Positions 4,001 through 44,332 of a stretch of 64,000 nt of DNA are shown here, in pieces. Both the position numbers and the translations under genes were made by a program. The notes beneath the pieces are model-generated. The model had not been told where the DNA came from. It saw only the letters and a list, made by a program, of their open reading frames with translations, and searched no databases. The first letter of the stretch is position 1, and each line of letters begins with the position of its first letter. Origin of the DNA: Trypanosoma brucei gambiense DAL972 (lineage: Eukaryota; Euglenozoa; Kinetoplastea; Trypanosomatida; Trypanosomatidae); NCBI RefSeq assembly GCF_000210295.1, contig NC_026743.1, positions 2,604,001-2,668,000 on the forward strand, given 5' to 3'.

Positions 4001-4063
4001 GGCATGTGGAAGAAGATAAAAGAGGGGGAGAAAGTAGAGACTTTGCATGAGATCCGAATACAT
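1007..4063 (-). CDS. SMYD-like SET-domain protein
   Basis: 1018-aa protein of the SMYD-type SET family, probably a protein lysine methyltransferase. The SET fold appears split: an N-terminal piece at about 420-440 (HGVGLIATSHIMEG), then the catalytic core with LINHSCKPN near 600 and GEEITVSY near 645, followed by a post-SET cysteine cluster (FCCCCSFCK then CPEC) at about 660-690 that should bind zinc. An acidic run (SDDDD) near 810 precedes a helical C-terminus with an ILPPNHPLLTG string like the TPR-type C-terminal region of SMYD proteins. I see no clear MYND finger. The ATG at 4063 gives a hydrophobic leader; an ATG at 3976 (MFDVRVV) is a reasonable alternative start. Substrate and localisation are unknown. 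Confidence 0.85.
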   Translation of the reverse strand: MYSDLMQSLYFLPLFYLLPHAPPSVGLLVMFDVRVVANPPGMSWLEDKSRDLESLRKRLTECGHDAESLTIVGRELHEIAEQAHRKGECGTLGVESGSGRDEEQAFQLFTHAGELLMRTVISILESFTQYEIHAATRVRIEKEEVDIIETLMRAANTDKTCSALSTLHCRWRRVYAASRAWRWCEAHVTLTSDYKPDLCSGGLYDMLPMTEWWWMPETVSAMTPPKAEATSSMCSDNDDGWLFFEDLFLSTTAPQSSECKRQLHDAETVTAFLNELNSTVDLFSRRIPAGYDELRRLYIGKADIQLQQARLFSHLSFVKGVPGSYQNATDGKTVVSGGVNGCHKLLWISREGLSTSMRCLIDALTAAQIAVAQFNAPCDDLIRRIRLAMFGVGLSSDGEGDTPHSACTPFLHPSVEPSSNRWRIKHGVGLIATSHIMEGAVVVKDKSLLLVGQVSPQKRKQERVTDIVETPDGENAAVVNGALELFLRGGFAHKDELATSSIVKALRVGKLLGDPVEAPDMHSALHLLAMMPFSGESGMHPTQGAGRENVDYEAAIARDLADLMCCWRRCSVPLEAPQDFRATPKDEVLTRCRALLPLVSLINHSCKPNAIILPLCSEESQGGSSFGEGKGGVCVIALRDIEPGEEITVSYLSSVLIPKTLKDEQNGFCCCCSFCKSSTALLEGVICPECRQLIYDPEDAQKNCDKYQGSAGRQPTRGVHTYPCVLVDLSPPKGQRSYEHASDCSRADSDTYESLSRRILQGYANAVDKACEEFESTSTFGGVGASACEVEVEAGTVGSSEEVQGIEVDGMEEGSDDDDNGAGEDQLAQTALRRLMDLDSFACALPTTHYIRLQTRLECLALSLRSQLTTHDSHMLLLLCEELLEDLRQILPPNHPLLTGVRLQYALARSRHFAESADSSHTTEKHDHGCCGGVRECAATLSLPFLRDGMIRECIVHSFQEFYTTVGWKHEGCTQRELLSSFLEEYAVELLMCGIESIDHMTLLSLVYDASQEASVGL

Positions 4064-4716: not shown

Positions 4717-7700
4717 TCACGCCCGCTCCCCCGGGGGAGTGGCGACACCGTCGCGAAATCTGGAAATGGTATCCTCATGGGTGCGCTCCTCCGTCTCTGT
4801 TGATCCCGCATGCCCCATCCCATCATCTTCTACAAGAGCCACGTCGATATCTGAGGACGTTGCGTGCATCCTGGAAAATACAATCGCTGCAATAGCAAAT
4901 ATTACAACCACACCGATAAAAGAACAGACTACGAAAACTTGAGAGTTTTTACCCCAAACTGATCGGTGCACGGGGTCCTCTGTCCATCCCCCAACAAAAG
5001 CACCTCCTCCCACGACGAGGTACCCCGCCTCCTGCCGTTCTCCCCATTCATCTTCCGAGAATCTAGTTTCAATGCCAATCGGATATATTTCCTCCCCTTT
5101 GCTCTGCAGTACCTTAAGTGTGCAGGTGATGGTGCTCGCACTCGCGCTCAGTACATCACACAAGACGGCTGCATCTGATGTATCATCTCCAACAATTACC
5201 CGGTTGTATTCAGCGCCAACTGGGTTGAAGTTATTGCCATGTAGTGTCAACTTGGTGTCATTCACACACCACGCGCTGATAGAGGCGCAGGATCCCGTCA
5301 CGTATTCCACCGACGGTGGAGAAGGGTGAACCTGGAGCGTTGTGAAGGAACCACTGGAAAACGGCACGGCTTTACCCCCGCTTGAAACCACGGCCGTCCA
5401 GTTGCACGCCAGAGGGGTATTCACGTGTACCTCACACGTTAGAAGTTCCTCTGTTATGCTCAGCACGGAACAAAATGGTTTCGTGCAATCCGGTCTGGGT
5501 GTTCCCGAGGACGTAAAGTTAACAGCGTATCCCTTCCGGGGATCAAACCGTCCGTAGAATTGAGCCACGACACCGTCACGCACCATCCGCGGTCGAATGG
5601 CCGCCACAATATCTTCCGCCGGCGCCAGTGGAAGTGTCACTGTGATATTTATAGGAAACCCCACAACCTTTGACGATTCAACACGCACTGTTGCAGCTGT
5701 ATACGGTGGCAGGGAACACGAAAGACAGACACACAGACAACTGATGCTACCGTTGTAGCCGTATAAATCCTGGGTAAAGGGGAAAGACACGTTAGAGTAT
5801 ATGACAGCAACGCCATCGCTGCTGCGGGAAAACTCTTGATGGCATTTGTGTGTGCCACAGTCAGCTGGGGAGTTAGGGTTGCCTGTTGGGATCAAAACGG
5901 CGTCACCGAGTTCCAGTGCACTTCCCTCTGCCTTAAATGCAGATGCTTGCGTTCCCACTACCTCCTTTGGTGTTATCGACAGAGTGCGGTACTCCAAACG
6001 AGTTGCAGCAAGCGTGCCGGTCATGTTAGGGTTGTAGGCTATCATGTAGAATGACCCAATATTGAGGGGAGGGACAACCACCGCGTTCTTCTGAGCAACT
6101 GGGAGCACACCAGAAAAACTCAATGATGGCCTCTGAATCTTGGCGTACTCTCCTTGCAAAAATCTTTCCACCATCGACTCGTCGGTGTCAGTGCGTAAAA
6201 GAGAAAAATACCACCCATCCTCCACACCTTTCACAGAGAGGCTGCATGGGGAATAGGCCAGGCAAGCAACCCGGTTGACCAGTATCTCTGAACTCCCATT
6301 TGGCAAGGCGGTTGCTTTCCCCCTCGTGAGTTGGCTCCAGGACTCTCGTACGAAAGTCAATCCACCAGTACGATACCTAGCGTCGTTTTTAGTGCTGCTT
6401 GCCGGAACACCTCCTTGTAAATCACCTACGATGGGTGTGGACCGTGTGACTCCTTCTGGCATCTTCACGACGACACGGTCGGGGGCCGGGGGGAAGTCGT
6501 ACGTATAACCAACCCTGCCGCGTGCACGGTTGGGCGGGATGACGCTTAGCCACATAGGTGGCGCTGGAGTGCCGCCGCAACATGCCACAGCCAGCTGGCC
6601 TAGGTGGCGATTGTGGTGGTCCTTCGCTGGACTCCACCTTCCATCGTCCTTACGCCACGCATGGCAGAGCAGTGTTTTGTTGCCGCGTTTTACGGTAATG
6701 TGGGCCCACCCATTTTCTGCAGAATTTACAGGAACCCAGAAGGATTTTTGTGGGGTGGATGCTGCCTCTCTCGGGGCGATGCCGAGTGGGCATATCTCGG
6801 ATAGTGAGCAAAGTTGCATACCGTTTTTCTTCCTGCAAGTGTTCTGTGCACCCTCCCACGTTATTTTACCCCGCGCAGCATGAAAGACACGTGATTTACC
6901 CGTCGTGTTCAATTTTAGTATTAATCGATTCCAGCCCCTCGCCAACCTAACCTGGTAAAGATAGTGCCCTACGGAAGACGATGAGGACGAACCAACGAAT
7001 AGACCATCCACCCACAATCCATGATCTGCATGGGAAGCCACACGTATCCCCACTTTCATCTCCTCCGCTGCGTACAGCGCAAGTGCCCTATACTGGTTGA
7101 AGCTTCCACAAATACTCTCGCCCCTCCAGAGACCATTTGTACTTCTCTCCGCCACCCACTCGTACTGGCGCCTCTCACCAAGCACCCAGACACTCTCCGT
7201 AGATAGGATCATGGAGCTAGGGCGTGAATTCAAAGGAAAGTCTGTCAGCGGAGCACTAGGCGACATTTCGGCCTCCAGATCGTGTGGAATTGCTCCTACA
7301 GTCGATTCCTTCTCAACAAGTCTCATCAGAGTCAGCACCGGTGCTTCCGCCTGCACGGGAGTGAGGTAAGGTGGAAGATCGTTACCGAGTGCGTTGACAC
7401 CCTTAACCTCGCAGCTTCCAAGGTGGATTTTAAATGAAAGGAACCAAGAATGACCATTGATAGCAACGGTGCGGAGAATAATTGAATGCCACCCCGGTGA
7501 CAGGTAAGTTGTAACACTCTCTTGCTTTCTTTCCGTACCATTTCCTCGGGAATAAGCAGGCGTGCTGTCCAAAAATAAGTCTGTCTCACCTTCAGTGACA
7601 AAAGTCCAGCAAACCGACGCGAAGCTGTTACGGCCGTTGTGAAGGGAAAAGGCAATGTATGACACAGCCGACCCTTTCCCTTTGTGGAGATTCACTCCAT

Positions 7701-9387
7701 ACACCGGTATTTTCCCGTCGGGGGATGTTAGTGTTGTCCACGTAAGGTTTCCTACCTTTCTCCCAGGCTGGGGAAAAACTCGCAGCACATCAACAACACT
7801 CCCATCGAAACCACCGTAAACGAAGTCTACCCACTCCTTTCCAAGATGGAGAAATTTGGAAACGTGTAAGTCGTCCATCAGCTCATAAGCTGCGCCTTCC
7901 ATACTCGGTACACCCCTGAGAGAGTAGCCAACAGCAGTGCCAACAACACGCATCCAAAACTTGGATGTAGCGAGCAACTCAGTTCGGTTATTGACACTAT
8001 ATTGATCAAAAAACAACTTGATAAACACCTGGTGGAAGCCTTCAGTTAGAGAGACATCAAACGAACTTTCATTCGATGGGTCGGCACTCCGTGGAGTGAA
8101 GCGTTTACCGTCGACATACACCACCGCTGTGGTATCGAAACCATATCGCACAGTGACACGCTGGGTCGCAGCACTATAAAGAGAAAAAGCGTAGAATTGC
8201 AAACTTCTGTGCGGCACCTTCGCTACAAACACACCATCGTCTGCGGCCAACTCCCGCCACACATCCTGCAAGAAGTGCTCGCTGTCAATGCGCACCATAC
8301 TCCTGCTGCCGACCTGCGGTCGAATTTGTGCCTCACCGCCAACGACAGTGGGAGCGAACCAATCCCTTTCGAGGGCAGTTGATCTTTCCACTGCACGTAT
8401 TGCCGTGCCCGCTTCACCAAAATGCAGCAGACGTGGGACAATTGCGTCAGGGTATGCTGACACGTCGGCTGGAAGCCGCCCAACAACATTCAAAACAGCT
8501 TTCAGTATTTTCGTGTTCGCGGTTTCAGGCCCATTCACAACTTCCACGACAATTACATATTCCCTAACACCTTCCGCTGGGGGGCCGGCGTAATGTGTAT
8601 AACGACCTGTTGGGCTCTCCGCGATGGTGGTGTTACCGTTTGCCGTGATACGGAACGTCACATTTCCTTGATACGGCTCGCTGTGTCTGTTCCACACGTT
8701 CACTTCAAATACAACTGGACCATTGACAACCGCAACGGTTGGTTTGAACCTCCAAGCGAGGTACAACGCCGGTTTTGTTGGAACGAACACTAGTCGATAG
8801 GGCCGCCCCCATGCTGCAGGCTCACCAGGCGTCAAAGCGCAGCACCCGCCGGTATGACTCGTATCATCGTTGTTATCTCCCCAGAACGAGAGCGTCCTCC
8901 CACCACTTTCCTCCGTGTATCCTTCACCTGAGCCACCAAGGACACCGGTGTCTAGCGGTTCGGACACCACGCGTGTGTAACCATCCCATGCGGGATCACG
9001 CGGGTCTCGCGGGGCGTACACGTAGTTCCGCGTGGCGTTCATGTTAGTGAGGAGGTTGCACAAGGTGACCCCAGGAAGGGGAATGAGGTGATCCGCAAAT
9101 GAGCCCATCTCGACAATCAAGACGTAGTTGTGTCCATGATAATCATACTCGACACATGGTTTCATGTAGTTCTTACCGCCATCGAATCCGTTTTGAATAT
9201 CATCTGTGGTGATTCTGCGGGTACCGTCCAGGTTACCAACTACAACCCCATTTTCGGCAGCTGAAGCAAGTACGGGCAAAACCGTAAACACAACAATAAT
9301 GGCTAAAACATTTAAAAAAGTGCCTGGGGGGCTTAGTGCCATGAAGAATGCATTTCCCCTCCTCCTTTTTGCGCAAGCACACTTCAT
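4717..9387 (-). CDS. Large type I surface glycoprotein: PA14-like repeats, Cys-rich module, TIG domain
   Basis: 1556-aa predicted type I membrane protein. A basic start is followed by a hydrophobic signal core (about 22-40) with a likely cleavage after ASA before AENG. One transmembrane segment lies at about 1485-1506, leaving a tail of about 50 aa inside. The ectodomain has many N-x-S/T sites and paired cysteines. Three regions (about 386-482, 570-656, 760-836) share a pattern: AFSLY-like strand, VYVDGK/LWVDGL, then SLTEGFHQVFIK / LSPGWHSIIL / LARGWNRLILK. This looks like repeated PA14/jelly-roll modules. A Cys-rich module (about 845-935) carries CSLSEICP...WVPV...CHAW, and an IPT/TIG-like fold (about 1352-1429) carries LTLHGNNFNPVG. 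A second TIG-like stretch may precede it. Ligand binding or adhesion at the cell surface or flagellar pocket is an inference. Confidence 0.8.
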   Translation of the reverse strand: MKCACAKRRRGNAFFMALSPPGTFLNVLAIIVVFTVLPVLASAAENGVVVGNLDGTRRITTDDIQNGFDGGKNYMKPCVEYDYHGHNYVLIVEMGSFADHLIPLPGVTLCNLLTNMNATRNYVYAPRDPRDPAWDGYTRVVSEPLDTGVLGGSGEGYTEESGGRTLSFWGDNNDDTSHTGGCCALTPGEPAAWGRPYRLVFVPTKPALYLAWRFKPTVAVVNGPVVFEVNVWNRHSEPYQGNVTFRITANGNTTIAESPTGRYTHYAGPPAEGVREYVIVVEVVNGPETANTKILKAVLNVVGRLPADVSAYPDAIVPRLLHFGEAGTAIRAVERSTALERDWFAPTVVGGEAQIRPQVGSRSMVRIDSEHFLQDVWRELAADDGVFVAKVPHRSLQFYAFSLYSAATQRVTVRYGFDTTAVVYVDGKRFTPRSADPSNESSFDVSLTEGFHQVFIKLFFDQYSVNNRTELLATSKFWMRVVGTAVGYSLRGVPSMEGAAYELMDDLHVSKFLHLGKEWVDFVYGGFDGSVVDVLRVFPQPGRKVGNLTWTTLTSPDGKIPVYGVNLHKGKGSAVSYIAFSLHNGRNSFASVCWTFVTEGETDLFLDSTPAYSRGNGTERKQESVTTYLSPGWHSIILRTVAINGHSWFLSFKIHLGSCEVKGVNALGNDLPPYLTPVQAEAPVLTLMRLVEKESTVGAIPHDLEAEMSPSAPLTDFPLNSRPSSMILSTESVWVLGERRQYEWVAERSTNGLWRGESICGSFNQYRALALYAAEEMKVGIRVASHADHGLWVDGLFVGSSSSSSVGHYLYQVRLARGWNRLILKLNTTGKSRVFHAARGKITWEGAQNTCRKKNGMQLCSLSEICPLGIAPREAASTPQKSFWVPVNSAENGWAHITVKRGNKTLLCHAWRKDDGRWSPAKDHHNRHLGQLAVACCGGTPAPPMWLSVIPPNRARGRVGYTYDFPPAPDRVVVKMPEGVTRSTPIVGDLQGGVPASSTKNDARYRTGGLTFVRESWSQLTRGKATALPNGSSEILVNRVACLAYSPCSLSVKGVEDGWYFSLLRTDTDESMVERFLQGEYAKIQRPSLSFSGVLPVAQKNAVVVPPLNIGSFYMIAYNPNMTGTLAATRLEYRTLSITPKEVVGTQASAFKAEGSALELGDAVLIPTGNPNSPADCGTHKCHQEFSRSSDGVAVIYSNVSFPFTQDLYGYNGSISCLCVCLSCSLPPYTAATVRVESSKVVGFPINITVTLPLAPAEDIVAAIRPRMVRDGVVAQFYGRFDPRKGYAVNFTSSGTPRPDCTKPFCSVLSITEELLTCEVHVNTPLACNWTAVVSSGGKAVPFSSGSFTTLQVHPSPPSVEYVTGSCASISAWCVNDTKLTLHGNNFNPVGAEYNRVIVGDDTSDAAVLCDVLSASASTITCTLKVLQSKGEEIYPIGIETRFSEDEWGERQEAGYLVVGGGAFVGGWTEDPVHRSVWGKNSQVFVVCSFIGVVVIFAIAAIVFSRMHATSSDIDVALVEDDGMGHAGSTETEERTHEDTISRFRDGVATPPGERA

Positions 9388-20167: not shown

Positions 20168-22432
20168 CTACTGATTGTCCACATCATCATCCCAGCCGTC
20201 GCAACTATCAAGAGCACAACTTTCTTTAAATGCTTTCACCCCACTTACTTCTTCAATGTACATAGGGTCGTTGATACATCGTAGCACAAAAGCTGACCCC
20301 TCGTCCTTGTATGAGCGTACGATAGGATCGGAGCATGCGGTGCACTGCTCGTAACGGCAACCATGGAGTGTGTAAACGTTGTGGTGGGCGACGCTACCAC
20401 GTATTTGCTGTGGGATCGTGCCCAAAGGGCAAACAGCGCCACCTGCAACGGAATCGGAGACCCCCGGTGTCGCGTCCCTCTCACTCTGGACGTAAGGAGG
20501 ACAGGCAAATCCCAGAGGGTGGTTGTAAAGTTGGGCAAGCAACTCCACTGCAATAGCAGATGCAATCGCTGAGAGACCAGGCCGAGTGACAGTGCACTGC
20601 TGGTCAAGCGTGCGAGCGGTAATACTGTCCCGAGGGGCGACGGAATCACTGCAGAAGTAGCAACCCAGACGAACGTACTTCACCCCTTTGTCACTGCCTT
20701 CCGGTGGGTCCAATCCATGGCGCATAACAACATATGTGTCAAATGCAAGTGCAACATTAACGGTTGGTTTACAGTGTGCAGTGGCCATTAGTGTAGGTAA
20801 CCAGCGCGCTTCTCGGCTGTCAGTCAACAAGAACACCACATCGTGTGAGCGTATGAGTTCATCCAGAGCCTCTATTTCTGCCTTTACTTCTTCCTCACGG
20901 GCCTTGTCCACGCGGTGACCGGGCATGTGTATTGTCAATGGCACACCACGTGCGTTTACACCAGGAAGGATACGTTTCAGTGCCTTAGCTGCGGCAATGG
21001 CTTTATTTCGTTCTTCTTCCCGTGGGTTGTTGACGTCAGACAACTCAAAGAGTGTTTGTCGAACCGGGTTTGAAAATGACACTTTACCGCGATCCACAAG
21101 TGTGATATGCCTCACACCCCACATGAGCAACTGCCGTGCCACGTTGCAACCGAGCGTTCCTGTCCCTAACAGTAGAGCTTTGCACTGCGCCAGCCTATCG
21201 AGGTTAAGTTCAGGCAGCGCGCGCCACTTCATCAAAGTTAAGTTAAGCCCAGCGCTCGCGTCGGCCAGTTTATCCGGAGACATCAGGGGGCCCAGATCAA
21301 TAGTGTGAACGCTCGGGGCCCCACCGTCGCTTTCCGGATCCACCCAGCCAACTACTTTGGCTGGACTAACACCTTCTACAACCTCCTCTAAGGTATAGGA
21401 AAGTGGCTCGCACATACAGTGAAAGAGGACGCTCTCTGACACATCGTTGTTCCGCACGCAGTATAAAGCAAACGAAGTAATGAGTGGCTGCGCCAATCGA
21501 AGAGCACTAACAATGTTGCGCACAGCCCATCCGGGCGAGCCTTCAGAAGAATAGTCCAGGAAAGCAATCAACGGCATTGAATGATTCGACGCTGCTTCCA
21601 TAGACTTGGGCGAGAATGGTAGAAATATAACACACCCATCATCATTGTTTCCTTTACCCTTCACATCAGCAGCGGAAGATCGCACGACAATAAAGGGATT
21701 GGGTCCATTCTCGGGTCTCTTCTGCAGTTTCTCCAACAAATGCGCATGAACGCGGTCAACAGCAAATTGATTCGGAAAGTAAACACCTTTAAATTCAGAC
21801 CCAGCAGCAGTATAACCACCTTTTACGCGCCGTTGAACAAAGACAGGAGAGCCAAGATCAAAAACAGGAAAGGCAACCGAATAAAGGAAACGGTGGCTTT
21901 TAAGGTCCGCGTACGTGTAAAGCGCCATAATTGAGAAGTTTACGTCTTCCCACGCTAGTTCCTCCGCAGAAGGACATTCAGTTACGTTTTCCTCGCACTT
22001 ATTTTTGCAACAAGTATACAGAGGAAGAAGAAGTGACTTTTTCAAAATATCCCACAATGCGCTACGACGAGGAAGTTGGTAAAGTTGCTTAGCCGTATTA
22101 AAGTTTTGAATAAAGCCATCGTGTAGTGTGTGCACACACCGCAAACTCGTGCCGGTACCACCAGAATGGTCGTCGATTGGGTCTCCTTCACTCACCGATG
22201 TTTCGTCCCTAAGACGCCTCGTGACATTCACACGGCTCGCGGACAAGCTTTCCGCCCTCAGCGATACTAATGACCGATAGATACCTGAAGATGAGGAACT
22301 CGTAACACCAAATACTGGCGAGCGAATGATGGGCTCGGACAGCCTCCATTCATGTAGTTTCCTCTTTTCCAGTTCATACCAAAAACTGATCTCAATGCGA
22401 AAATCATGCATCAAATACTTCAAGCGCTCCAT
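20168..22432 (-). CDS. ATG7: Autophagy E1-like enzyme ATG7
   Basis: 754 aa from the ATG at 22432. ATG7 is the E1 that activates ATG8 and ATG12 and passes them to the E2s ATG3 and ATG10. The N-terminal ATG7 domain is visible (FWYELEKRKLHEWRLSEPII near the start, later VVGWVDPES and LNLTLMKWRALPEL). The ThiF/E1 nucleotide-binding fold has GTGTLGCNVARQLLMWGV at about 423-440 followed by ITLVDRGKVSFSNPVRQ. CYFCSD supplies half of the zinc site, and the catalytic cysteine is in TLDQQCTVTRPG near 612. It is somewhat longer than yeast (630) and human (703) ATG7. A polypyrimidine tract ends about 14 nt from the start codon, giving a very short predicted 5' UTR and supporting this start. Confidence 0.95.
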   Translation of the reverse strand: MERLKYLMHDFRIEISFWYELEKRKLHEWRLSEPIIRSPVFGVTSSSSSGIYRSLVSLRAESLSASRVNVTRRLRDETSVSEGDPIDDHSGGTGTSLRCVHTLHDGFIQNFNTAKQLYQLPRRSALWDILKKSLLLPLYTCCKNKCEENVTECPSAEELAWEDVNFSIMALYTYADLKSHRFLYSVAFPVFDLGSPVFVQRRVKGGYTAAGSEFKGVYFPNQFAVDRVHAHLLEKLQKRPENGPNPFIVVRSSAADVKGKGNNDDGCVIFLPFSPKSMEAASNHSMPLIAFLDYSSEGSPGWAVRNIVSALRLAQPLITSFALYCVRNNDVSESVLFHCMCEPLSYTLEEVVEGVSPAKVVGWVDPESDGGAPSVHTIDLGPLMSPDKLADASAGLNLTLMKWRALPELNLDRLAQCKALLLGTGTLGCNVARQLLMWGVRHITLVDRGKVSFSNPVRQTLFELSDVNNPREEERNKAIAAAKALKRILPGVNARGVPLTIHMPGHRVDKAREEEVKAEIEALDELIRSHDVVFLLTDSREARWLPTLMATAHCKPTVNVALAFDTYVVMRHGLDPPEGSDKGVKYVRLGCYFCSDSVAPRDSITARTLDQQCTVTRPGLSAIASAIAVELLAQLYNHPLGFACPPYVQSERDATPGVSDSVAGGAVCPLGTIPQQIRGSVAHHNVYTLHGCRYEQCTACSDPIVRSYKDEGSAFVLRCINDPMYIEEVSGVKAFKESCALDSCDGWDDDVDNQ

Positions 22433-22786
22433 GGCTACCTTTTCTAACACAGCCGAAGGCAAAAATAAAAAAAAGAAAAAAAGCTAATAACACACAACGC
22501 TAACTGAAGGGGGAACCCCCACGGTCCCTACAAGAAGCCACTGCAGTATTCCCCACGCATGCTGTGACCTCACAGCCATCGGTAAACACTGTGCCTGGTG
22601 GAAAGCAGGCGACAACTAGCAAAAAAAAAAAAAAGAGGTTCCTCAAGGAAACACCGTGCAACTGGCTCACCACCGAAAGTAGTAACTGTCAAATAACAAC
22701 AGATATTAAGCACGAAGACCGCAAACCACCCCACATATTTGAATTCAACCGCAAAGTGCAATGCCCCAGCTACAGTGCCCCTCGCC
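22433..22786. other. Intergenic spacer between RtcB and ATG7
   Basis: 354 bases holding two plus-strand A-rich tracts (about 22461-22483 and 22621-22634) that are polypyrimidine in the transcribed sense. The distal one may direct polyadenylation of the RtcB mRNA, the proximal one trans-splicing of ATG7. Confidence 0.5.
22444..22483 (-). promoter_or_regulatory. Polypyrimidine tract and spliced-leader acceptor for ATG7
   Basis: In the transcribed sense a T-rich tract (from 22483 to about 22461) is followed by the first AG at 22445-22444. This would leave only 11 nt of gene-encoded 5' UTR before the ATG at 22432. Site inferred from sequence, not mapped. Confidence 0.5.
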
Positions 22787-24247
22787 TTACCCCTTAACGC
22801 ACAACAACTGTCTGAGCACGCATACAACCTCCACAAGATCATCCTGAGCACGCATAACGTCGTCAATGTCCTTGTACGCCATGGGTGTCTCGTCTAGAAC
22901 GTCAGCGTCTTTTCGGCACTCTATGCCCTTTGTTGCCGTCTTATGCTGCTCCAAGGTGAAACGCCGTTTCGCCTCACCACGGCTGTAACGCCTGCCAGCT
23001 CCGTGGGAGCAGGATGAGTAACTTTTTGGATTACCTTTCCCACGTACAATGTAGCTTTTCGTTCCCATGCTTCCAGGAATGACCGCAAGCTCGCCTGCAC
23101 GTGCGGATGTAGCCCCCTTCCTTGTTAACCACACGTGCACTCCAGCACTCAACTCCATACGCTGAACGTAATTGTGATGGCAATTTATCGCAAGTGCATC
23201 AACGGAAAACCCCCTACCTATTGTTTTGCGCACCGCGCGAAGCACGTTGTCCAGCATAATCTCACGGTTCAGCTTTGCGTAGAGTTGCGCCCAATAAACA
23301 GCTTCCACATACTGTTCGAAGTGCTCAGAACCCTCACGCAGATAGGCCAGGTCGGCACTCGGAAGATTTGCTAGGTGGGCCCCCATGTCCTTCTTGGCGA
23401 GCTCGAAAAATATTGTTCCGATGCGGTTTCCAACCCCCCGCGAACCGCTGTGCAACATCACCCAGATGTTAGGTTGCCGGGAAACGCCTTTGGACGTTTC
23501 ATATGTGGCACTGCTGCTCCCTGAATTCCCAGTTTCAACGTAACTTTCACCCACGTCCACCTTCCTTCCATCATCAGCACATAGTTCAATGAAGTGATTT
23601 CCACCGCCCAGAGTGCCCAAGTGTTCAATGTGGTTGCTAGTTTCAATGTGTTTTTGCATGCAACAGATCTCCTCAAAGCCTTTCTGCAACTGCGTCCGCC
23701 ACACAGCAGCGACGCTCTCTGGGATGTTGTTTCGCCAGCTTCCCGCATCTAACCCACTTCTACCATTGTGCGTTCGCCCGTGTGGGACGGCAACTTCGAT
23801 AGCCAGTCGGAGGGCAGCCAGTGACGACGGTAAATCTTCTTGTGTCAGGCTCGTACGCACCGCGATCATCCCGCAACCGATATCCACCCCAACACTCGCT
23901 GGTATGATTGCCCGTGTTGTTGGGATGACCGTCCCTACAGTGGCACCGTTGCTGGTATGTACATCTGGCATGGCTACAACGGGGTGCTGAATAATATCAC
24001 CCAACCGTGACAACTGCAGGAGCTGTTCAACTGCAGAGCGCTCCACCTCAACGCCACTCACCCAAGCATGCACATCCACACTACTTCCTTCCTCCCGAAT
24101 TACGGTATACGGTTCTACGTCCGACCCATGATCAGTCTCACCTACGGCGCAACACTTCCGTCCCGGAAACACAGCACTGTCGGTGCGTCCACCTCCACCT
24201 GCACCAGCGGTAGCGCGAATGCATAATTTTGTGACAGCGTGACGCAT
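22787..24247 (-). CDS. rtcB: RtcB-family RNA ligase, bacterial type
   Basis: 486 aa. RtcB is a Mn/GTP-dependent ligase that joins 3'-phosphate or 2',3'-cyclic phosphate to 5'-OH RNA ends. Hallmarks are present in order: MPDVHTSNGATVGTVIPT, GVDIGCGM (metal Cys near 124), GTLGGGNHFIELC, LHSGSRGVGN, NCHHNYVQ and SCSHGAGRRYSR with the expected guanylylated histidine at H415. The last residues (PMAYKDIDDVMRAQDDLVEV...CVKG) and the whole core follow the E. coli RtcB protein rather than the animal/archaeal HSPC117 form. About 75 extra N-terminal residues begin MRHAVTKLCIRATAG, which could be a mitochondrial presequence. Possible roles are tRNA or other RNA repair/splicing; the compartment is unproven. 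The ATG at 24247 is the first in frame. Confidence 0.95.
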   Translation of the reverse strand: MRHAVTKLCIRATAGAGGGGRTDSAVFPGRKCCAVGETDHGSDVEPYTVIREEGSSVDVHAWVSGVEVERSAVEQLLQLSRLGDIIQHPVVAMPDVHTSNGATVGTVIPTTRAIIPASVGVDIGCGMIAVRTSLTQEDLPSSLAALRLAIEVAVPHGRTHNGRSGLDAGSWRNNIPESVAAVWRTQLQKGFEEICCMQKHIETSNHIEHLGTLGGGNHFIELCADDGRKVDVGESYVETGNSGSSSATYETSKGVSRQPNIWVMLHSGSRGVGNRIGTIFFELAKKDMGAHLANLPSADLAYLREGSEHFEQYVEAVYWAQLYAKLNREIMLDNVLRAVRKTIGRGFSVDALAINCHHNYVQRMELSAGVHVWLTRKGATSARAGELAVIPGSMGTKSYIVRGKGNPKSYSSCSHGAGRRYSRGEAKRRFTLEQHKTATKGIECRKDADVLDETPMAYKDIDDVMRAQDDLVEVVCVLRQLLCVKG

Positions 24248-24734: not shown

Positions 24735-25091
24735 CTAATTGGCAACATGGACCTCTGCGGACCGAGTGCTCGACATCATCGACAAGTGCTCTTTGAGCAG
24801 CTGAGAACGCTTAATGGTATACGCTCTTTTCGTACAATCCGGACAACAAGGGTTTCCCCTCAGCAGGTACCGCTCGGGACAACAATGGGTACAAAATTGG
24901 CGACCGCACCAATCACAATTAGTGCTGGGAGTGAAGTAAAAACAGAATGGTTCTTCACACGACGAGCAGAAGCGGCCATCCCTGGGCCGAGCACTTTCCG
25001 GAGCGGGTACGTATGTTATTGGTTCTACTTTATCCTTCACTTCAGGAGGAACCTCTTCGTGTGTGCGAACGTTGCTAAAAATCGTGCCCAT
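24735..25091 (-). CDS. Small FYVE-like zinc-finger protein with N-myristoylation motif
   Basis: 118 aa. Eight cysteines in four CxxC pairs (42/45, 59/62, 67/70, 83/86) have the spacing of a FYVE cross-brace zinc finger: CSSC, CDWCGRQFCTHC, CPDC. The basic phosphoinositide-binding signature R(R/K)HHCR of true FYVE domains is absent (here STNCDWCGRQF), so phosphatidylinositol 3-phosphate binding is uncertain. The N-terminus MGTIFS fits an N-myristoylation site (Gly2, Ser6), suggesting membrane attachment. There is no other domain and the protein is unusually small for the family. It lies upstream of RtcB on the same polycistron. Confidence 0.75.
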   Translation of the reverse strand: MGTIFSNVRTHEEVPPEVKDKVEPITYVPAPESARPRDGRFCSSCEEPFCFYFTPSTNCDWCGRQFCTHCCPERYLLRGNPCCPDCTKRAYTIKRSQLLKEHLSMMSSTRSAEVHVAN

Positions 25092-29542: not shown

Positions 29543-30547
29543 TCACAACTTCTTTACTTCACCCACAGTCCTCTGCCGCATCAGCGTTAGGAGTGTCTCG
29601 ACAGTGGCGCTGTCATTTCGCTCGTCCTCCACCTTTCGGAACTGTAAGCGAAGCTTCCGCGCCTCTTTTTCGTGTAGTTTTTGTTGGATGCTGTCAACAT
29701 AATGCTGTTTCTCCCGGTTGCGAGAGCCGCTCATAACGTAGCCGAGGGACTCCGCAGCAGCAACGCTCTCCGCATCGTATCCAATCTCCCCACGACGCGG
29801 TGCTCGCTTATACTGTGCAAGGAACTCCTCGCGGGTCATTTGCAGTGGATGCTTTGAAGCAGCGACGCACCCTCGTGGCTCCTCGGTTTTGCTATAGTCC
29901 GGTTCGTTGCCTTGTTGCAACGACACACCAAACTCGTCACCCCCATCATCCCCCGTCTGTGCACCTACCCGTAGCCCACGGCACTCACCGTCGGCGGTGG
30001 CGCCGCCGCTACGTGGTGGCGCCGGGCACATTACATGACAGACGCCACTGTCGGTCTTGATAGGCCCTACACCTTCTACAGTTTCCCTCGCACGCGCTGC
30101 CTCGATGAGGGCTGCGAGCGCGCTGGGGGTTGGGGACACCCCTGCCGCGTCAACACGCCTAACCTCATGCGCGGTGCTGGTCGCCACCTCTGGTTCGTGG
30201 TGGTCATCACATGGTGCCGGAGACGCTGCCGACACTTCCCCTGCGCTAGGACTCTCTCCCTCTGCGTCGTAGCCTACACCTGAGGAGCGCACGAGGAACG
30301 CAACAGTTTCGCTCAACGGGCTCTCCCCCGTCCTCGTTCCGTCACCCCGTCCGTTCACCGTACAAGTTCGCTGGGGACGCGACTGTCCCGGTAGACTCCC
30401 TCTCTTTCCAAGCGCGGATAGTTCGTGCACAGCCAACGTGTGATGCGTGCAAAATATGTTTTGCGCAATGACGGAATGCACAACTTTCTCTAGCTCCCTA
30501 CCGCGAGGTTCCATTGCAGGGCACCAAAAGGCACCAGTCCCTGCCAT
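29543..30547 (-). CDS. NKAP-like protein
   Basis: 334 aa. The C-terminal region (about 240-330) has PRRGEIGYDAESV and ESLGYVMSGSRNREK, the signature of the NKAP/SynMuv C-terminal domain (metazoan form PRRGEIGLTSEEI ... GYVMSGSRHRR), followed by a charged helix (KLHEKEARKLRLQFRKVEDE). NKAP proteins are nuclear and linked to pre-mRNA splicing and transcriptional repression. The N-terminal 235 residues are low-complexity and lack the RS/K-rich tract typical of animals. In a trypanosome, where nearly all splicing is trans, a spliceosomal role is a natural inference but not shown by the sequence. The start at 30547 is the first ATG. Confidence 0.8.
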   Translation of the reverse strand: MAGTGAFWCPAMEPRGRELEKVVHSVIAQNIFCTHHTLAVHELSALGKRGSLPGQSRPQRTCTVNGRGDGTRTGESPLSETVAFLVRSSGVGYDAEGESPSAGEVSAASPAPCDDHHEPEVATSTAHEVRRVDAAGVSPTPSALAALIEAARARETVEGVGPIKTDSGVCHVMCPAPPRSGGATADGECRGLRVGAQTGDDGGDEFGVSLQQGNEPDYSKTEEPRGCVAASKHPLQMTREEFLAQYKRAPRRGEIGYDAESVAAAESLGYVMSGSRNREKQHYVDSIQQKLHEKEARKLRLQFRKVEDERNDSATVETLLTLMRQRTVGEVKKL

Positions 30548-32397: not shown

Positions 32398-35016
32398 TCA
32401 GTGCAGAGATGATGCTATATCAGAAAGATCCTCCGCAAGTTCAGGGTATTTGTCGGTTAGCTCTCCTAGTATTTCGGCGAATGCCCTCCGTTTTTCGTTC
32501 AGTCTCGATGCCTCAGCTGCCGTATGCTTTAACTCTAGAGCGGACTTGTACGTTCCCTTCTCTGCGTCACGAATGCGCTGGAGACTCGAGTTCTTCGCGC
32601 GTCGCTCGTCCTCTAAACGGTCGTGTTCCTTTTGAGCGACAACAAGTTGTGAGCGAAGCTCGGAAATCTGTTCGTCAAGAGTGTCTATTTCCCGCTGAAC
32701 AGATTCTGCCTCGGCCGTTGTCTTCTCAATGGAAGCAAGACGTTCCTTGATCTGACGCTCTTTTAGCTGCGCCTCTTGTCTTTTTTCATTTAACTCCTTA
32801 AACATCCTGGAACTTTCTTTTTCAATATCCATTCTCGTCACTCCCCGCTTGTTCACTTTGGCAGCCTCTTGGATCGCCTGGCCTTTTGCCCTGATGATCT
32901 CCCGATGATCAATTGACTTCTGCATTTCTTCAATTAAAAACCGCTGTTCACGCTGCAGGTGACTGACTCGCTGTTCCATGATCCCAATCTCTTTTCTCAT
33001 TTTCTCTACTTCTGCTTTACCAACCGAAGGATCTAACGCCATCTCAGTTTCTTTAGCAACTTGCATTTTCCTCTCCCAAAACAATATATCACTTTCATGA
33101 TTCATAATTTGTTCAAGGAGTTCGGTTTTCGCCTGTCTAGCTTCCTCCACCTTTTGCTCAAGCACGATCGCCTCACGCTTTTTTTCCTGGAGTCTACGAA
33201 TGAGATCATTCTCGAGAAGAAACGCTTCGTTGGCAACGTTCTTCTGATCATCGGAATTTTTGCAAAGTTGAGTGTTTACCCGTTTCATCTCTAGGTGCAT
33301 GGCATTCGCCTTGTTTTCGAGGTTTGCAATGTCCTTTTTCTCGTTTGATATATTTACCAGAAGTCGATCCCTTTTTTGTGTTAGTACAGTGCTCTGGGCC
33401 TGGAGCTCAAGAATCGCTTCGTTCACTTCATTTGAATTGTTTTTACAGTTAACCAACTCTGTTTGCAGTTTTATCCATTCCTGTTGGAGAGCCTCATTTT
33501 CATTGACTTTTTCCGCAATTGCTTTTGAAAGACTGTTAATGGTGGCCTCCAGGGGCCCTACGTGTTCCCCCTTGTCGGCGCCATAAGCAGCGACAAGTTG
33601 TTCATACTGGTGGTTGAGTTGGTCTAGTTGTTTTTGCTTCCTGTCGATCTCGTCGTGTCGACGGTGAATGTCCATTTGCATGCGTTCGACCATCAGGCCA
33701 CGAGCTTGTAGCTCCTTTTCGAGATCGCCCAATGTGGTTTTCAGGGTCTCATTATGTGACTGAGCCTGCAGTGTGTCCACACGAATGCGAGCAAGTTCGT
33801 TCTCCATTTGTGCCACTTGAAGCTCCTTGGATCTAATGGAGCCTTTCATTTTTTCGATATCACTCAATGTACCGTGGCACTCTTGTTTCAGTGAGGACTG
33901 CTTACCAAGTGACTCGAGTATGTCATTTTCCATCAGGACCACCTCCTTAGAAACCTTCAACATCTTCTTCTCGATATCGGCAGCTTCGGTAGAGTATGTT
34001 CTTGCCTCGTATTCCAGCTTTTTGGCTTCTGCATCTGTTTGTTCAATATTATCCTTCAGCATCACGTATTCACGTGCGCCTTTCTCCTTTCTTTCCACAA
34101 GGACATCGATCTGCTTCCCTAGAACGGTAACTTCGTTGTCAACTCGAGACATGAATTCAGCCAATTTGGCAGTCTCTGCTTGAACGCCTTTAATGTCTTT
34201 CCTAGTCCCAATTATCTCGTTCTCGAGCACTTGTAGCTCATCTTTCTGCTGTTGCAGTGCCTCTTCTGTCTTTTTCATGGCTTCGTGACGCCGTTGCATC
34301 CCAATGAGCGTACCCTTCCACTGTTGAACTAATTGTTTTTTTTCAAAATTAATTGCCTCCATTTCTGCCAAAGCTTCAGCTAATATTTCCCGAGCCTTCT
34401 GGGTTTCCCTTTGCTGGTTCTCGACCTGGGAGTTAACCGTGGATATTTCTTCTTCTAGCAGAACAACACGTTTCTCCAAAGAGTCTATAAGGTTGTCTTG
34501 CTTCAACTTTTCCTTCTCCAAGTTGGTTATATCTTCCTCTGTTTTGAAAGCAGCACGGCGCTCCACTTGAACTTCGTTTTTGAGTTGTTCATTAAACTGT
34601 TGGACTTTCACTAATGTTTCAGTAAGCTTTAAAAGATCCGCCTGCTGACGTTCGTATTGTCGTTGCTGGTCCTCAATGTTTTTCCGAAGTGTGTCTGCCT
34701 GCGCAGCAAGTTCCTCTCGTTCTTGAAGCTTTTCCTCGTGTTTTTGCTTTGTTGCGAGGTGCTTTTCATGGCATTTCTCAAGAGTTTCCTGCAACTTGGC
34801 AAGGTGTTGCTGGGAATTGTAAAGCTCAACACCGCATTGCTCCCTTTCTTTCTGAGCCTTAGATAATTCATTCTTTACTTCATAGATCTGCTGCATGACC
34901 TCTTCCAGATGCTGTCGAAGTTGCGCTTCAATGCGCTTCTGGACCGGTGCGAGCACCGCAGATTCCGGGTCCAGATCGGAAACATCGCTTGCAACATCGT
35001 ATGGTACGTCAGACAT
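32398..35016 (-). CDS. CCDC40: CCDC40/FAP172-like axonemal ruler protein
   Basis: 872 aa, coiled coil almost throughout (heptads of Leu/Ile/Val with Glu/Lys/Gln). The C-terminal third shows the family pattern: DPSVGKAEVEKMRKEIGIM near 657-675, then QRVSHLQREQRFLIEEM and IDHREIIRAKGQ, comparable with animal CCDC40 strings of the type GEIxxMKxEIHRMxxR...LxxxQExxIRxMExAVxRRE. CCDC40 forms with CCDC39 the 96-nm molecular ruler that sets dynein arm, radial spoke and N-DRC positions on doublet microtubules. The CCDC39 partner is not in this window. A clean polypyrimidine tract and AG lie 19 nt before the ATG, supporting the start. Confidence 0.82.
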   Translation of the reverse strand: MSDVPYDVASDVSDLDPESAVLAPVQKRIEAQLRQHLEEVMQQIYEVKNELSKAQKEREQCGVELYNSQQHLAKLQETLEKCHEKHLATKQKHEEKLQEREELAAQADTLRKNIEDQQRQYERQQADLLKLTETLVKVQQFNEQLKNEVQVERRAAFKTEEDITNLEKEKLKQDNLIDSLEKRVVLLEEEISTVNSQVENQQRETQKAREILAEALAEMEAINFEKKQLVQQWKGTLIGMQRRHEAMKKTEEALQQQKDELQVLENEIIGTRKDIKGVQAETAKLAEFMSRVDNEVTVLGKQIDVLVERKEKGAREYVMLKDNIEQTDAEAKKLEYEARTYSTEAADIEKKMLKVSKEVVLMENDILESLGKQSSLKQECHGTLSDIEKMKGSIRSKELQVAQMENELARIRVDTLQAQSHNETLKTTLGDLEKELQARGLMVERMQMDIHRRHDEIDRKQKQLDQLNHQYEQLVAAYGADKGEHVGPLEATINSLSKAIAEKVNENEALQQEWIKLQTELVNCKNNSNEVNEAILELQAQSTVLTQKRDRLLVNISNEKKDIANLENKANAMHLEMKRVNTQLCKNSDDQKNVANEAFLLENDLIRRLQEKKREAIVLEQKVEEARQAKTELLEQIMNHESDILFWERKMQVAKETEMALDPSVGKAEVEKMRKEIGIMEQRVSHLQREQRFLIEEMQKSIDHREIIRAKGQAIQEAAKVNKRGVTRMDIEKESSRMFKELNEKRQEAQLKERQIKERLASIEKTTAEAESVQREIDTLDEQISELRSQLVVAQKEHDRLEDERRAKNSSLQRIRDAEKGTYKSALELKHTAAEASRLNEKRRAFAEILGELTDKYPELAEDLSDIASSLH

Positions 35017-36755: not shown

Positions 36756-39710
36756 ATATATATATGCGGCACTCCCTTAAGATGCGCAGTACGTGCGTTC
36801 GCGGGAAATAATAGGCTAGAATGCTGGTGGATTGTGTGTGCTACTGTTGTGTGTAATTTAAAAAAAAAAAGTATTAGTTATATTACAAGGGGCATAATAA
36901 CTTTAAAAGTGCCAGCGAGGACCTGCTGCGGCTCCAAAAGGGGCAAATACAGACGCAGCACGAAATCAACGGGGCCTCAAAACCGAACATGGTCGCGCCA
37001 AGACACACTCATTCAACTGTATATCGCGGTTTGCGGTATCCATAGCGATGCGGCAAGAGCCCCCGCGCATATGAGAAATGTCAACTGGACAGAGCTCCGT
37101 CCACATAAAAGTTGGAGGGGATCACTGAGAAGCAAAATTGGAAGACAATCAAAAACATACTTAGCAATGGCAAGGACTTTCAACCGAGTCAGCATCAGTG
37201 CATATGGCACAAATGACGTTACGGTGTAAAAATCGATACGCTACACCCATTTTTTTTTTTGAGCACGAAACAACGATGCGGCAGTAGACGTGTCGACAGC
37301 CCCCTCAGCGCAGACGCATCGGCTTTACCACGGCCCTCCGCCGTCACGAGTCGCCGGCAACAACACCAGTGGAAACCGCATTAACAACACGAATTGGATA
37401 AGGGAGACAAAAAGATCGGGGTCTGAGGAGGCGGCAGGAAGCATTTGATGTCCTCCAGCGACCCTGAGAAGCTCCCGACGCTACAGGGAAAGGAGAATCG
37501 CAGTGGCCAGCCACACCGTTTACCAAACGTGAAAGCAGATGCCGGGGCTTTCAGCGCCGAGTTGCGTCAACGCCATCCACAAGCACCAATCCACTAGGCC
37601 TTGAAAGAAGTTTCCACTCATGTCGGGGTCACAGTACCCGAAGCACACCAAGAATAAAGCACCAAAGCGGGAGGCGAACGTAGGAAGTGATAGACTAGGT
37701 GAAGTAAACGATCGAAGGCATGTAACGGAAACGCCCACAAAAGCAAACTGCCGGCCTGCGAGGGGATCTGCGCCACACACGTGCCTACAGACCAGCGCAG
37801 TGTCAGATCAGAGACCGGCTTGGGGGCAGTAGAACCCGACCCCTCCACAAGGAAGGAGCTACCGCACATCCGCCGCCACGTCTTCGGCAACGAGAGGGCT
37901 TCGTCCAGGAACTATGGGACGGGTTGCTGTGGCAGAAACGCTAAGGCGGAACAGACGGCTTCTATTGGATGTGAGTGAAAACGAAGGGTCCTCAATTGTC
38001 TGCTCCACAACCCCTCAGCTGTATGTTATGCTTCGGTCGATGAGAAAGAGACGGGGTGGGCGCGATCCTACTTCAGAGCCACCCGCTTCTCAAGGGCAAC
38101 TGCAGCCCTTTAGGGGGGGGGCCCAACACTCTACGCCACAGTTCCGACCCATTTTTCTGGTAACAAAGTAAGAGCACTAGGATCATTGATGTCGAAGGTC
38201 AGTATCAGGTTTCGTTCCCGAACAGCCCAATCGCCAGTGCAGGGGCTGACTTACCTTCAAAGATACGACCGTAGGAGAGATGTAGTCTGACGCTGCGTTC
38301 CAAATCATTCTCCATCAATGACCTAACGGCCGATATATGTCGAAGGCACGGGGTGTCCCCACTTTTAATTCTATCACAAGACGATGTGTCGTCAATAGAA
38401 AAGGGCCATGTGTTCCGCGTTTAGGTCAACCAAGCGTTGGGGAGGGCTGACCGAGCCGGCGAAGCCCCAGTTTCCATGAGTAGGTGAAGGATTTTCTCTT
38501 ATCACCTACACTGACTCCTCAGACACACTGCACTAGCCACCAGACGACCGGAAAAGACACATTCCGCTAAGCTGGTAACCAAAACTTCCTGATTTAGGCT
38601 TTTTCGGACTAGCGCGACCATTTTTTTTTTTTCTAAAGGTGCTTCCTGTGAGCCTTTTAGATTTTCCAACTCTCGAAATCGACTAATACCAGCCAGTAAA
38701 CAAGTCCAGAACAAACCTAGATTTGCTGAAGCTCTGCGCGGCACTGTTGTAAGTAAAAAAATGCAGGGAGGGACGCACACCCACAACTAAGGGAACGCGG
38801 TATATTCGGTGTCTTGGTAGTCTCACATTATGCACTATCCAACTTCCTGGCAGCGCCACGTCGCGAGGACGCCACAGCCATCTCTCAGCAAGTTGTCAGG
38901 GTTGGCCGTTGGAGTTCAAACCCAGGCACATAGGCGGCTCCTCCCGTAAGGGACCGGTTGACAATCCCCACTTTTCGTAATGAAGTTAGAGGTGCTTCGG
39001 GTTCTAGTAGATTTATATAAGAAAATTCTTTGTTTTCATTGAGCTCCACAATTCTAAAGTAAAAACTATATCTGAGAAGAAAAGGTTTATCCTAAAAGTT
39101 TTTAAAAGAATATTTTCCCTTCATACCCATGAAAACCTCCTGCCACACGGGAAGGCATCAGTAAATGCATAAAACTTTTGCCATAGTTGTACGACATTCG
39201 GTGCTACCGGTAACTTGGTCGCATATCCCCAGAAGCTTCAGCGGAATTAGCATACCACAGCACTGCAACAAGGTACTGCTCACGTTTGCCTAATGCAGTT
39301 GAATTTCCACACCAGAAACCATAGAAGAGAGGGAACAGTAATTGCTTTCGTCCATCACCCGGAGCTGATACTGAACCTGCGTTGCTCCTCATAAGGAGCC
39401 AGAACGAACCGCGTGGGAAACCTTCGAATTCTCACAGGAGACGAACCCAACAAACCGAAGGCACAAACCTATAGTGTGGGACGTGCCGTGACGCCACAAG
39501 ACAGACCATTCTAGGGATTATTTATGTTGTCTACGTGAACTCAGGAGGGGTCTCGGATTCCAGCCATTTCAGGAGAGTTGCAGGTACAGGCTTCGCCGTT
39601 ATCCGCGCCACCCGTGAAATTTCAGTTCATCAACGTGTGTCCGAACACTATGGAAGTCCCCATCCACCACGACTTAGTTTGAGTGTGGGGGCAAAAGCGG
39701 TGACAGAGGA

Positions 39711-43891: not shown

Positions 43892-44332
43892 TATTTTGCT
43901 CCTTTCGCTCCCCTATTTTTTACTCAAAGAAAATACGAGTCAAAAATGATGAAAGGGGAAAGGAAAAGCAACAAAGAGATTGAAGAAAAGTCAATGTATT
44001 TATACATGTTATGTGGGATATTATATGGTAGGGAAGTGATGTATTGAGGACGCTTTTTTTTTTCTTTGTTTTAATGAGGAGCTAAAAAGATAGAGAGAAA
44101 AGAAAAAAAGGAGGAATTGCCTTCGTTAGCTCAATTGGGCATGATTTATGTTCCCATTTAGTTGACATAAATTTGCACCTTATTTCTTACCACCGGGAGG
44201 GGAGTGAGGATGCGAGGGACATGAATGGTTTTCTTCTTTTTCTTTTTCTTAACTGCGCCTTTTCTTGCTTTTCGTCTTATTGGCGTGCGTCAGTCTGAAA
44301 ATAGTTAGGTGGGTAAAAACATTAATAAAAAA
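43892..44332. other. Intergenic spacer
   Basis: 441 bases with a T9-rich tract at about 44054-44063 and a T-rich stretch at 44229-44250 (tggttttcttctttttctttttctt) that is a strong polypyrimidine tract upstream of IFT57. The first AG after it is at 44293 or beyond, so the 5' UTR should be under about 40 nt. Confidence 0.5.

Follow-up and report, generated by a model that had tools for sequence, protein, structure and literature searches.

A single RtcB1-type RNA ligase of Trypanosoma brucei gambiense, probably of bacterial ancestry and with a predicted role in the mitochondrion

A 64,000-nucleotide stretch of contig NC_026743.1 of Trypanosoma brucei gambiense DAL972 (positions 2,604,001 to 2,668,000, assembly GCF_000210295.1; referred to as the window) carries on its minus strand an open reading frame (ORF) for an RNA ligase of the RtcB family. 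It gives the only RtcB match of this genome, belongs to the RtcB1 type represented by the Escherichia coli enzyme, retains the active site of the family and is found in a genome with no match to archease or RtcA. The ligase was probably gained from bacteria by an ancestor of the kinetoplastids and is probably located in the mitochondrion, where it would reseal cleaved mitochondrial RNA apart from editing and from the splicing of tRNA-Tyr; its activity and its substrate are predicted from the sequence.

The ORF encodes 486 amino acids, starts with ATG and has no internal stop codon; upstream of the start, the frame stays open for 19 more codons, none of which is an ATG. Residues 75 to 486 match the Pfam RtcB profile PF01139 over its whole length (positions 1 to 426 of 426) with 392.9 bits at a curated cut-off of 27, and the protein has the RtcB fold. 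Since the E value over the entire profile is 2.9e-117, a chance match is excluded. An earlier note on this DNA had described an RtcB with E. coli-like motifs, and this identification holds: all motifs named there were located, those of the C-terminus being AYKDIDDVM at residues 457-465 and CVKG at residues 483-486. No NCBIfam model reached its cut-off, neither for this protein nor for E. coli RtcB. When the genome (22.1 Mb, 11 contigs) was searched with the family profile and with the protein itself, the window gene was the one PF01139 match, and no second or HSPC117-type RtcB was found. The nearest protein among the best 120 of 8000 scored is the RtcB of T. equiperdum (99%), and the same 120 include relatives from 19 named trypanosomatids (eight Trypanosoma species and 11 others); Bodo, Euglena and Naegleria are not named among them. 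Apart from the resemblance to bacterial proteins, nothing suggests bacterial contamination or a pseudogene, and this explanation was rejected as having negligible probability: the gene adjoins an ATG7-like gene in an 11-contig assembly, has the trypanosomatid relatives just mentioned, and combines an intact frame with the conservation of all checked active-site residues. Tb927.10.11190 has been annotated as "tRNA-splicing ligase RtcB, putative" (PMC9136415). This identifier most likely denotes the window gene, because the latter is the sole RtcB match and is located on contig 10.

At 12 of 12 active-site positions compared, the protein is identical to RtcB of Pyrococcus horikoshii. These include the Asp, Cys and His set of the Mn2+ and guanosine monophosphate (GMP) site and the histidine corresponding to His404 of P. 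horikoshii (His415 here), the guanylylated residue. The histidines flanking the region before LHSGSRG are further apart in the window protein (218-266) than in E. coli RtcB (168-185), which corresponds to an insert that is about 31 residues longer. The core of this insert (234-248) and residues 1-40 have a predicted local distance difference test score (pLDDT) below 50 in the structure model.

Several lines of evidence support an assignment to the E. coli/RtcB1 type. BLAST identity amounts to 50% with E. coli RtcB and 53-58% with eight other bacterial proteins, whereas four HSPC117 proteins reach only 25-26%. In a quick tree of 61 rows, in which HSPC117, Pyrococcus, Thermus and distant bacterial RtcBs served as outgroups, the window protein and E. 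coli RtcB share a 52-row RtcB1 clade with an SH-like approximate likelihood ratio test (SH-aLRT) support of 98, far from HSPC117. Forcing kinetoplastid and HSPC117 sequences together in this set was 205 log units worse and was rejected by the approximately unbiased (AU) test (p-AU 3.7e-6). Two observations weigh against this assignment. For the 61-row tree, the program warned that long branches meet and that two outgroup rows are unusual in composition. Furthermore, in a 78-row set with HSPC117 as the sole outgroup, the same constraint was 16 log units better (p-AU 0.724), so that this test alone gave no rejection. In the 78-row tree, the branch that leads to HSPC117 has a length of about 10 changes per column; the result was read as long-branch rooting noise, meaning no more than that HSPC117 cannot root the tree by itself, and HSPC117-only rooting was dropped as uninformative. 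The rerun with the broader outgroup of the 61-row set rejected the kinetoplastid-HSPC117 clade, and membership of the HSPC117/archaeal RTCB clade is thus not supported. The bacterial type proposed in the earlier note is supported by identity, trees and AU test, including the tree comparison that it had suggested as a check. The window protein differs from E. coli RtcB by an N-terminal extension of about 45 residues and by the lineage-variable insert before LHSGSRG; active-site residues are the same in both.

The trees also bear on the origin of the gene. Rows labelled "kinetoplastid-like" in this analysis, a label that covers several metagenomic rows lying between trypanosomatids and diplonemids, are monophyletic with a support of 100/100 both in an outgroup-free maximum-likelihood (ML) tree (23 rows) and in an ML tree rooted on two viral-contig homologs (18 rows). 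A larger clade, nested in bacterial RtcB1, unites them with the diplonemids and the eukaryotic row P0128. This eukaryotic RtcB1 clade comprises 48 of the 398 rows of a FastTree tree (support 0.949) and is recovered with SH-aLRT values of 94 in the 78-row ML tree and 95 in the 61-row tree, and with 96/92 in the viral-rooted tree; in the outgroup-free tree, all 46 bacterial rows lie across a 99/92 branch from the eukaryotic RtcB1 rows. A root on the kinetoplastid stem was disfavoured only at p-AU 0.022, and the 78-row set, which contains no intermediate outgroups, did not exclude it (p-AU 0.724). A mostly bacterial clade has also been described for kinetoplastid RtcB in an article with a set of 1,183 sequences (PMC12699882, 2025), and the RtcB identifier appears in the gene list of a lateral-transfer study (PMC4711719, 2016). 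Against a bacterial origin it has to be held that the nodes on which the position within bacteria depends have only modest support (88/80 and 92/65 in the viral-rooted tree) and that bootstraps were not settled in the outgroup-free and viral-rooted trees. No donor group among the bacteria was supported in the trees made here. Horizontal acquisition from bacteria, as suggested in the earlier note, would still be the best reading of these sequences: the nesting in rooted trees speaks for it, the modest nodes and the lack of a supported donor leave it supported rather than proven.

These trees were built from selected rows. Six of 160 extracted homologous loci were left out because no ORF was found in them, as were 113 of 120 HSPC117 hits in the 398-row tree and 117 of 120 in the 78-row and 61-row trees. 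Three of the seven distant loci for the 61-row tree (L197, L198 and L200) were omitted, again with no ORF found; loci L192-L195 were extracted and not used, and further rows were thinned by hand before the 78-row, viral-rooted and 61-row trees were calculated. Among viral contigs, at least 590 confirmed stretches with RtcB1-type ligases were detected, the best 80 of which were kept (L084-L163). Ten such rows intermix with bacteria in the viral-rooted tree, and viruses, provided that these rows are free of host DNA, could therefore be carriers of the RtcB1 gene.

Whether kinetoplastids and diplonemids received RtcB1 together is a further question. One shared acquisition, which also includes Naegleria, has been proposed (PMC12699882). 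Two separate events, contrary to that proposal, represent a real but minor possibility in our view. They are suggested by the identities, since the T. brucei protein is 54% identical to that of Diplonema and 53-58% identical to the eight bacterial proteins other than E. coli RtcB, while the Diplonema protein is 60-65% identical to the same eight, and by a search with the Diplonema protein, in which the 120 top-scoring hits include no kinetoplastid. In addition, AU tests spared two arrangements in which the groups are separate (p-AU 0.126 and 0.368; the groups were picked after the tree had been viewed). Against two events, a single branch sets the RtcB1-type eukaryotic rows apart in each of the four ML trees, and FastTree groups them as well, with the support values given above. 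As far as they go, the trees would thus favour a single acquisition, yet the two separate arrangements survive the AU test. Row P0128, a eukaryotic transcriptome RtcB1, shares 66% identity with a protein of Blastocatellia and 62% with that of Diplonema; it has a presequence-like N-terminus and groups with the diplonemids at 95/78 (outgroup-free tree) and 96/77 (viral-rooted tree).

Besides E. coli RtcB, a close known system for comparison is RTCB1 of Diplonema papillatum (row P0040, probably DIPPA_22497), which shares the eukaryotic RtcB1 clade with the window protein but is only 54% identical to it and differs in one motif. Diplonemids and bacteria have TRKGAV at the position of window residues 375-382, whereas TRKGATSA is present in 12 kinetoplastid-like rows of the alignment; two more such rows have TRKGATAA and TRKGASAA. 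The corresponding motif is RKGST in zebrafish RtcB and RKGAT in Pyrococcus RtcB, and the change in the kinetoplastid-like rows is possibly convergent. Joining of gene modules is not known from T. brucei mitochondria. The Diplonema enzyme is predicted to be mitochondrial and has been proposed to join the transcripts of mitochondrial gene modules (PMC12699882).

A mitochondrial location of the T. brucei protein is suggested by its N-terminus, which was compared in 50 hand-picked rows by simple measures of charge and length. In the window protein, 61 residues precede the invariant Trp62; the corresponding median is 17 (range 1-60) for the 23 bacterial rows and 52 for the 27 rows of eukaryotic type. 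Over the first 25 residues, the median net charge is +4 in the eukaryotic-type rows and -1 in the bacterial rows, and 11 of 27 eukaryotic-type rows, but 0 of 23 bacterial rows, combine a net charge of at least +2 with the lack of any acidic residue. By charge and length, the extension of the window protein is presequence-like. The roughly 75 extra residues mentioned in the earlier note reflect the start of the Pfam match, and the extension proper is about 45 residues long. According to PMC12699882, a published map (Pyrih 2023) places T. brucei RtcB in the mitochondrial matrix, and a 2026 review restates that RTCB is found in trypanosome mitochondria (PMC13247085).

Several points weigh against this location. 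The N-terminus of the window protein is moderate (its first 25 residues carry a net charge of +3 and include one acidic residue; the maximal hydrophobic moment is 0.42), and the eukaryotic-type row P0035 lacks any extension. PMC12699882 adds a "but see" on the location, referring to a second map (TrypTag), and a term search of the available main text of the TrypTag article (PMC9981465) for the gene found nothing. Mitochondrial import, the second proposal of the earlier note, is therefore supported rather than proven, with the presequence-like N-termini and the cited matrix map on one side and the "but see" on the other. T. evansi, to our knowledge, lacks kinetoplast DNA (kDNA). In irradiated T. 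evansi (100 Gy), Tb927.10.11190 is listed with the positively scoring genes and showed fold changes of 1.89 (6 versus 1 h) and 1.82 (20 versus 1 h) (PMC9136415); this entry is hard to reconcile with a role limited to kDNA transcripts, and hints at a possible importance of the enzyme outside them.

RtcB enzymes attach GMP to a histidine and transfer it to the 3'-phosphate of an RNA, which is then attacked by a 5'-OH. The trypanosome protein is most likely a GTP-dependent ligase of this kind, and the following sequence of events is considered the best explanation and fairly probable. RtcB1 would have been gained from bacteria by the kinetoplastid ancestor, an event possibly shared with diplonemids. 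The protein, made with its presequence-like extension, would be imported into the mitochondrion, hold Mn2+ through Asp122, Cys125 and histidines, and carry GMP on His415. Passing of GMP to an RNA 3'-phosphate and attack by the 5'-OH would seal the break without archease, as in E. coli RtcB. The likely substrate would be RNA of the mitochondrion (its rRNA or imported tRNA) in which nuclease cleavage has produced 2',3'-cyclic phosphate and 5'-OH ends, and the role would be separate from that of the KREL ligases in uridine insertion/deletion editing and of Trl1 in tRNA-Tyr splicing. E. coli RtcB reseals RNA after ribotoxin damage, as stated in PMC12699882.

The partner genes in the genome are in line with an E. 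coli-like enzyme in one respect and differ in another. A search for archease (PF01951) yielded 0 matches in the trypanosome genome and was positive in six of 14 control genomes; E. coli, one of the 14, likewise gave no match. Archease and an HSPC117-type RtcB had both been named in the earlier note as genes to look for, and neither was matched. In E. coli, rtcB adjoins rtcA and rtcR, whereas the search of the trypanosome genome yielded no RtcA; its one match to the RTC family lies above the RCL1 NCBIfam cut-off and below the RtcA-type cut-offs and was typed as RCL1. Four matches to the RF-1 superfamily, considered for a link to PrfH, were typed to superfamily level.

Databases name the protein a tRNA-splicing ligase, and a cytosolic or nuclear enzyme for tRNA-Tyr or stress-response splicing, similar to animal HSPC117 and with an extension that is not a working presequence, would agree with this name and with the "but see" on the location in PMC12699882. 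PMC10598085 notes RtcB alongside Trl1 and Clp1 and names two routes that are possible for tRNA-Tyr, RtcB being one of them. The same article, however, cites Lopes 2016 for splicing of tRNA-Tyr by Trl1, and the one match to a Trl1-type RNA ligase (RNA_lig_T4_1) in the genome fits this reported role. HSPC117/RTCB, the animal tRNA ligase, acts with archease and a complex (PMC12313893), while archease is unmatched here, and the N-termini of most of the 27 eukaryotic-type rows are presequence-like. A cytosolic or nuclear role is thus considered improbable.

The earlier note had also linked the ligase to uridine editing. The trypanosome mitochondrion cuts and joins RNA extensively, and an enzyme in this organelle could take part in editing or guide-RNA processing by joining those ends on which the KREL ligases are unable to act. 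Cleavage during editing leaves 5'-phosphate and 3'-OH ends, and KREL1 and KREL2, which join such ends, are located in the same organelle as proposed for RtcB. These ligases belong to the Rnl2 family, which is unrelated to RtcB, and were matched separately in the genome: two Rnl2-type matches over the cut-off (C9:519098 and C1:441822), presumably KREL1 and KREL2, and one under it. The mitochondrial location reported in PMC12699882 would favour the editing role, but editing ends are sealed by Rnl2-type ligases (PMC3400036), and the same type of RtcB occurs in bacteria, which have no such editing. Because editing involves the opposite RNA ends and has its own ligases, a part of RtcB in it is very unlikely, and the proposed link is not supported. 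With the predicted resealing of 3'-phosphate ends by RtcB, the mitochondrion would contain two unrelated RNA ligation chemistries, that of KREL using 5'-phosphate ends.

Since bacterial placement and mitochondrial location of kinetoplastid RtcB are already published (PMC12699882), the novelty attributed to them in the earlier note is not supported. The present analysis adds an AU test that rejects a placement with HSPC117, a corrected length of the extension, the genome searches without archease and RtcA matches and a caution on the single acquisition; no search for prior reports of these points was made. Among the articles listed in searches of open-licence literature, no functional study of T. 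brucei RtcB appeared. If resealing in the mitochondrion is correct, T. brucei would provide a tractable parasite model for the organellar function of RtcB1, and a test ground for the idea that RtcB1 preceded the fragmented mitochondrial genes of diplonemids. This idea can be extended into a decidedly tentative scenario, which we do not expect to be right in full: a bacterial RtcB1 might have been taken up by the ancestor that kinetoplastids and diplonemids share and been targeted to mitochondria before their odd RNA processing arose; kinetoplastids would retain it for the repair of mitochondrial breaks with 2',3'-cyclic phosphate and 5'-OH ends, and its prior presence would have let diplonemid mitochondrial genes fragment, to be joined as RNA. 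In that case, the T. brucei enzyme could serve as the reference for the ancestral function of the diplonemid joining ligase.

Table 1. Features of the RtcB gene and its product; positions refer to the window.
Feature	Position	Strand	Basis
RtcB1-type RNA ligase gene, 486 aa	22787..24247	-	ORF, Pfam, single PF01139 match in genome
About 45 extra N-terminal residues, presequence-like	24113..24247	-	Row comparison and model; exact end of extension approximate
GVDIGCGM, residues 120-127	23867..23890	-	Asp122, Cys125 match P. horikoshii Asp95, Cys98
GTLGGGNHFIE, residues 211-221 (GTLGGGNHF 211-219)	23585..23617	-	Asn217, His218, Glu221 match P. horikoshii Asn202, His203, Glu206
Lineage-variable insert, residues ~226-259 (approximate)	23471..23572	-	Alignment; core 234-248 with pLDDT <50
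LHSGSRG, residues 265-271	23435..23455	-	His266, Arg270 match P. horikoshii His234, Arg238
NCHHNY, residues 355-360	23168..23185	-	His358, Asn359 match P. horikoshii His329, Asn330
SCSHGAGR, residues 412-419	22991..23014	-	His415 matches P. horikoshii His404

Among the 13 other ORFs of the window that were scanned, Pfam suggested no functional link to RtcB. Directly downstream on the same strand (20168-22462) lies the gene for an ATG7-like E1 enzyme with ThiF and ATG7_N domains, and just upstream (24735-25091) an ORF of 118 amino acids encodes a Cys-rich protein that contains several CxxC pairs and gave no match to Pfam at E 0.001. The window further encodes a protein of 1556 amino acids with the four domains DUF7495 to DUF7498 (4717-9387) and the intraflagellar transport protein IFT57 (44309-45574); other domains are SET (1007-4063), Nkap_C (29543-30547) and BRE1 (32398-35016). 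The 21 ORFs of at least 220 amino acids are located on the minus strand to the left of about 36.8 kb and on the plus strand to the right of about 39.7 kb, and the GC skew changes its sign near 40-42 kb. The interval 36756-39710 resembles a divergent strand-switch region from which two transcription units would lead away.
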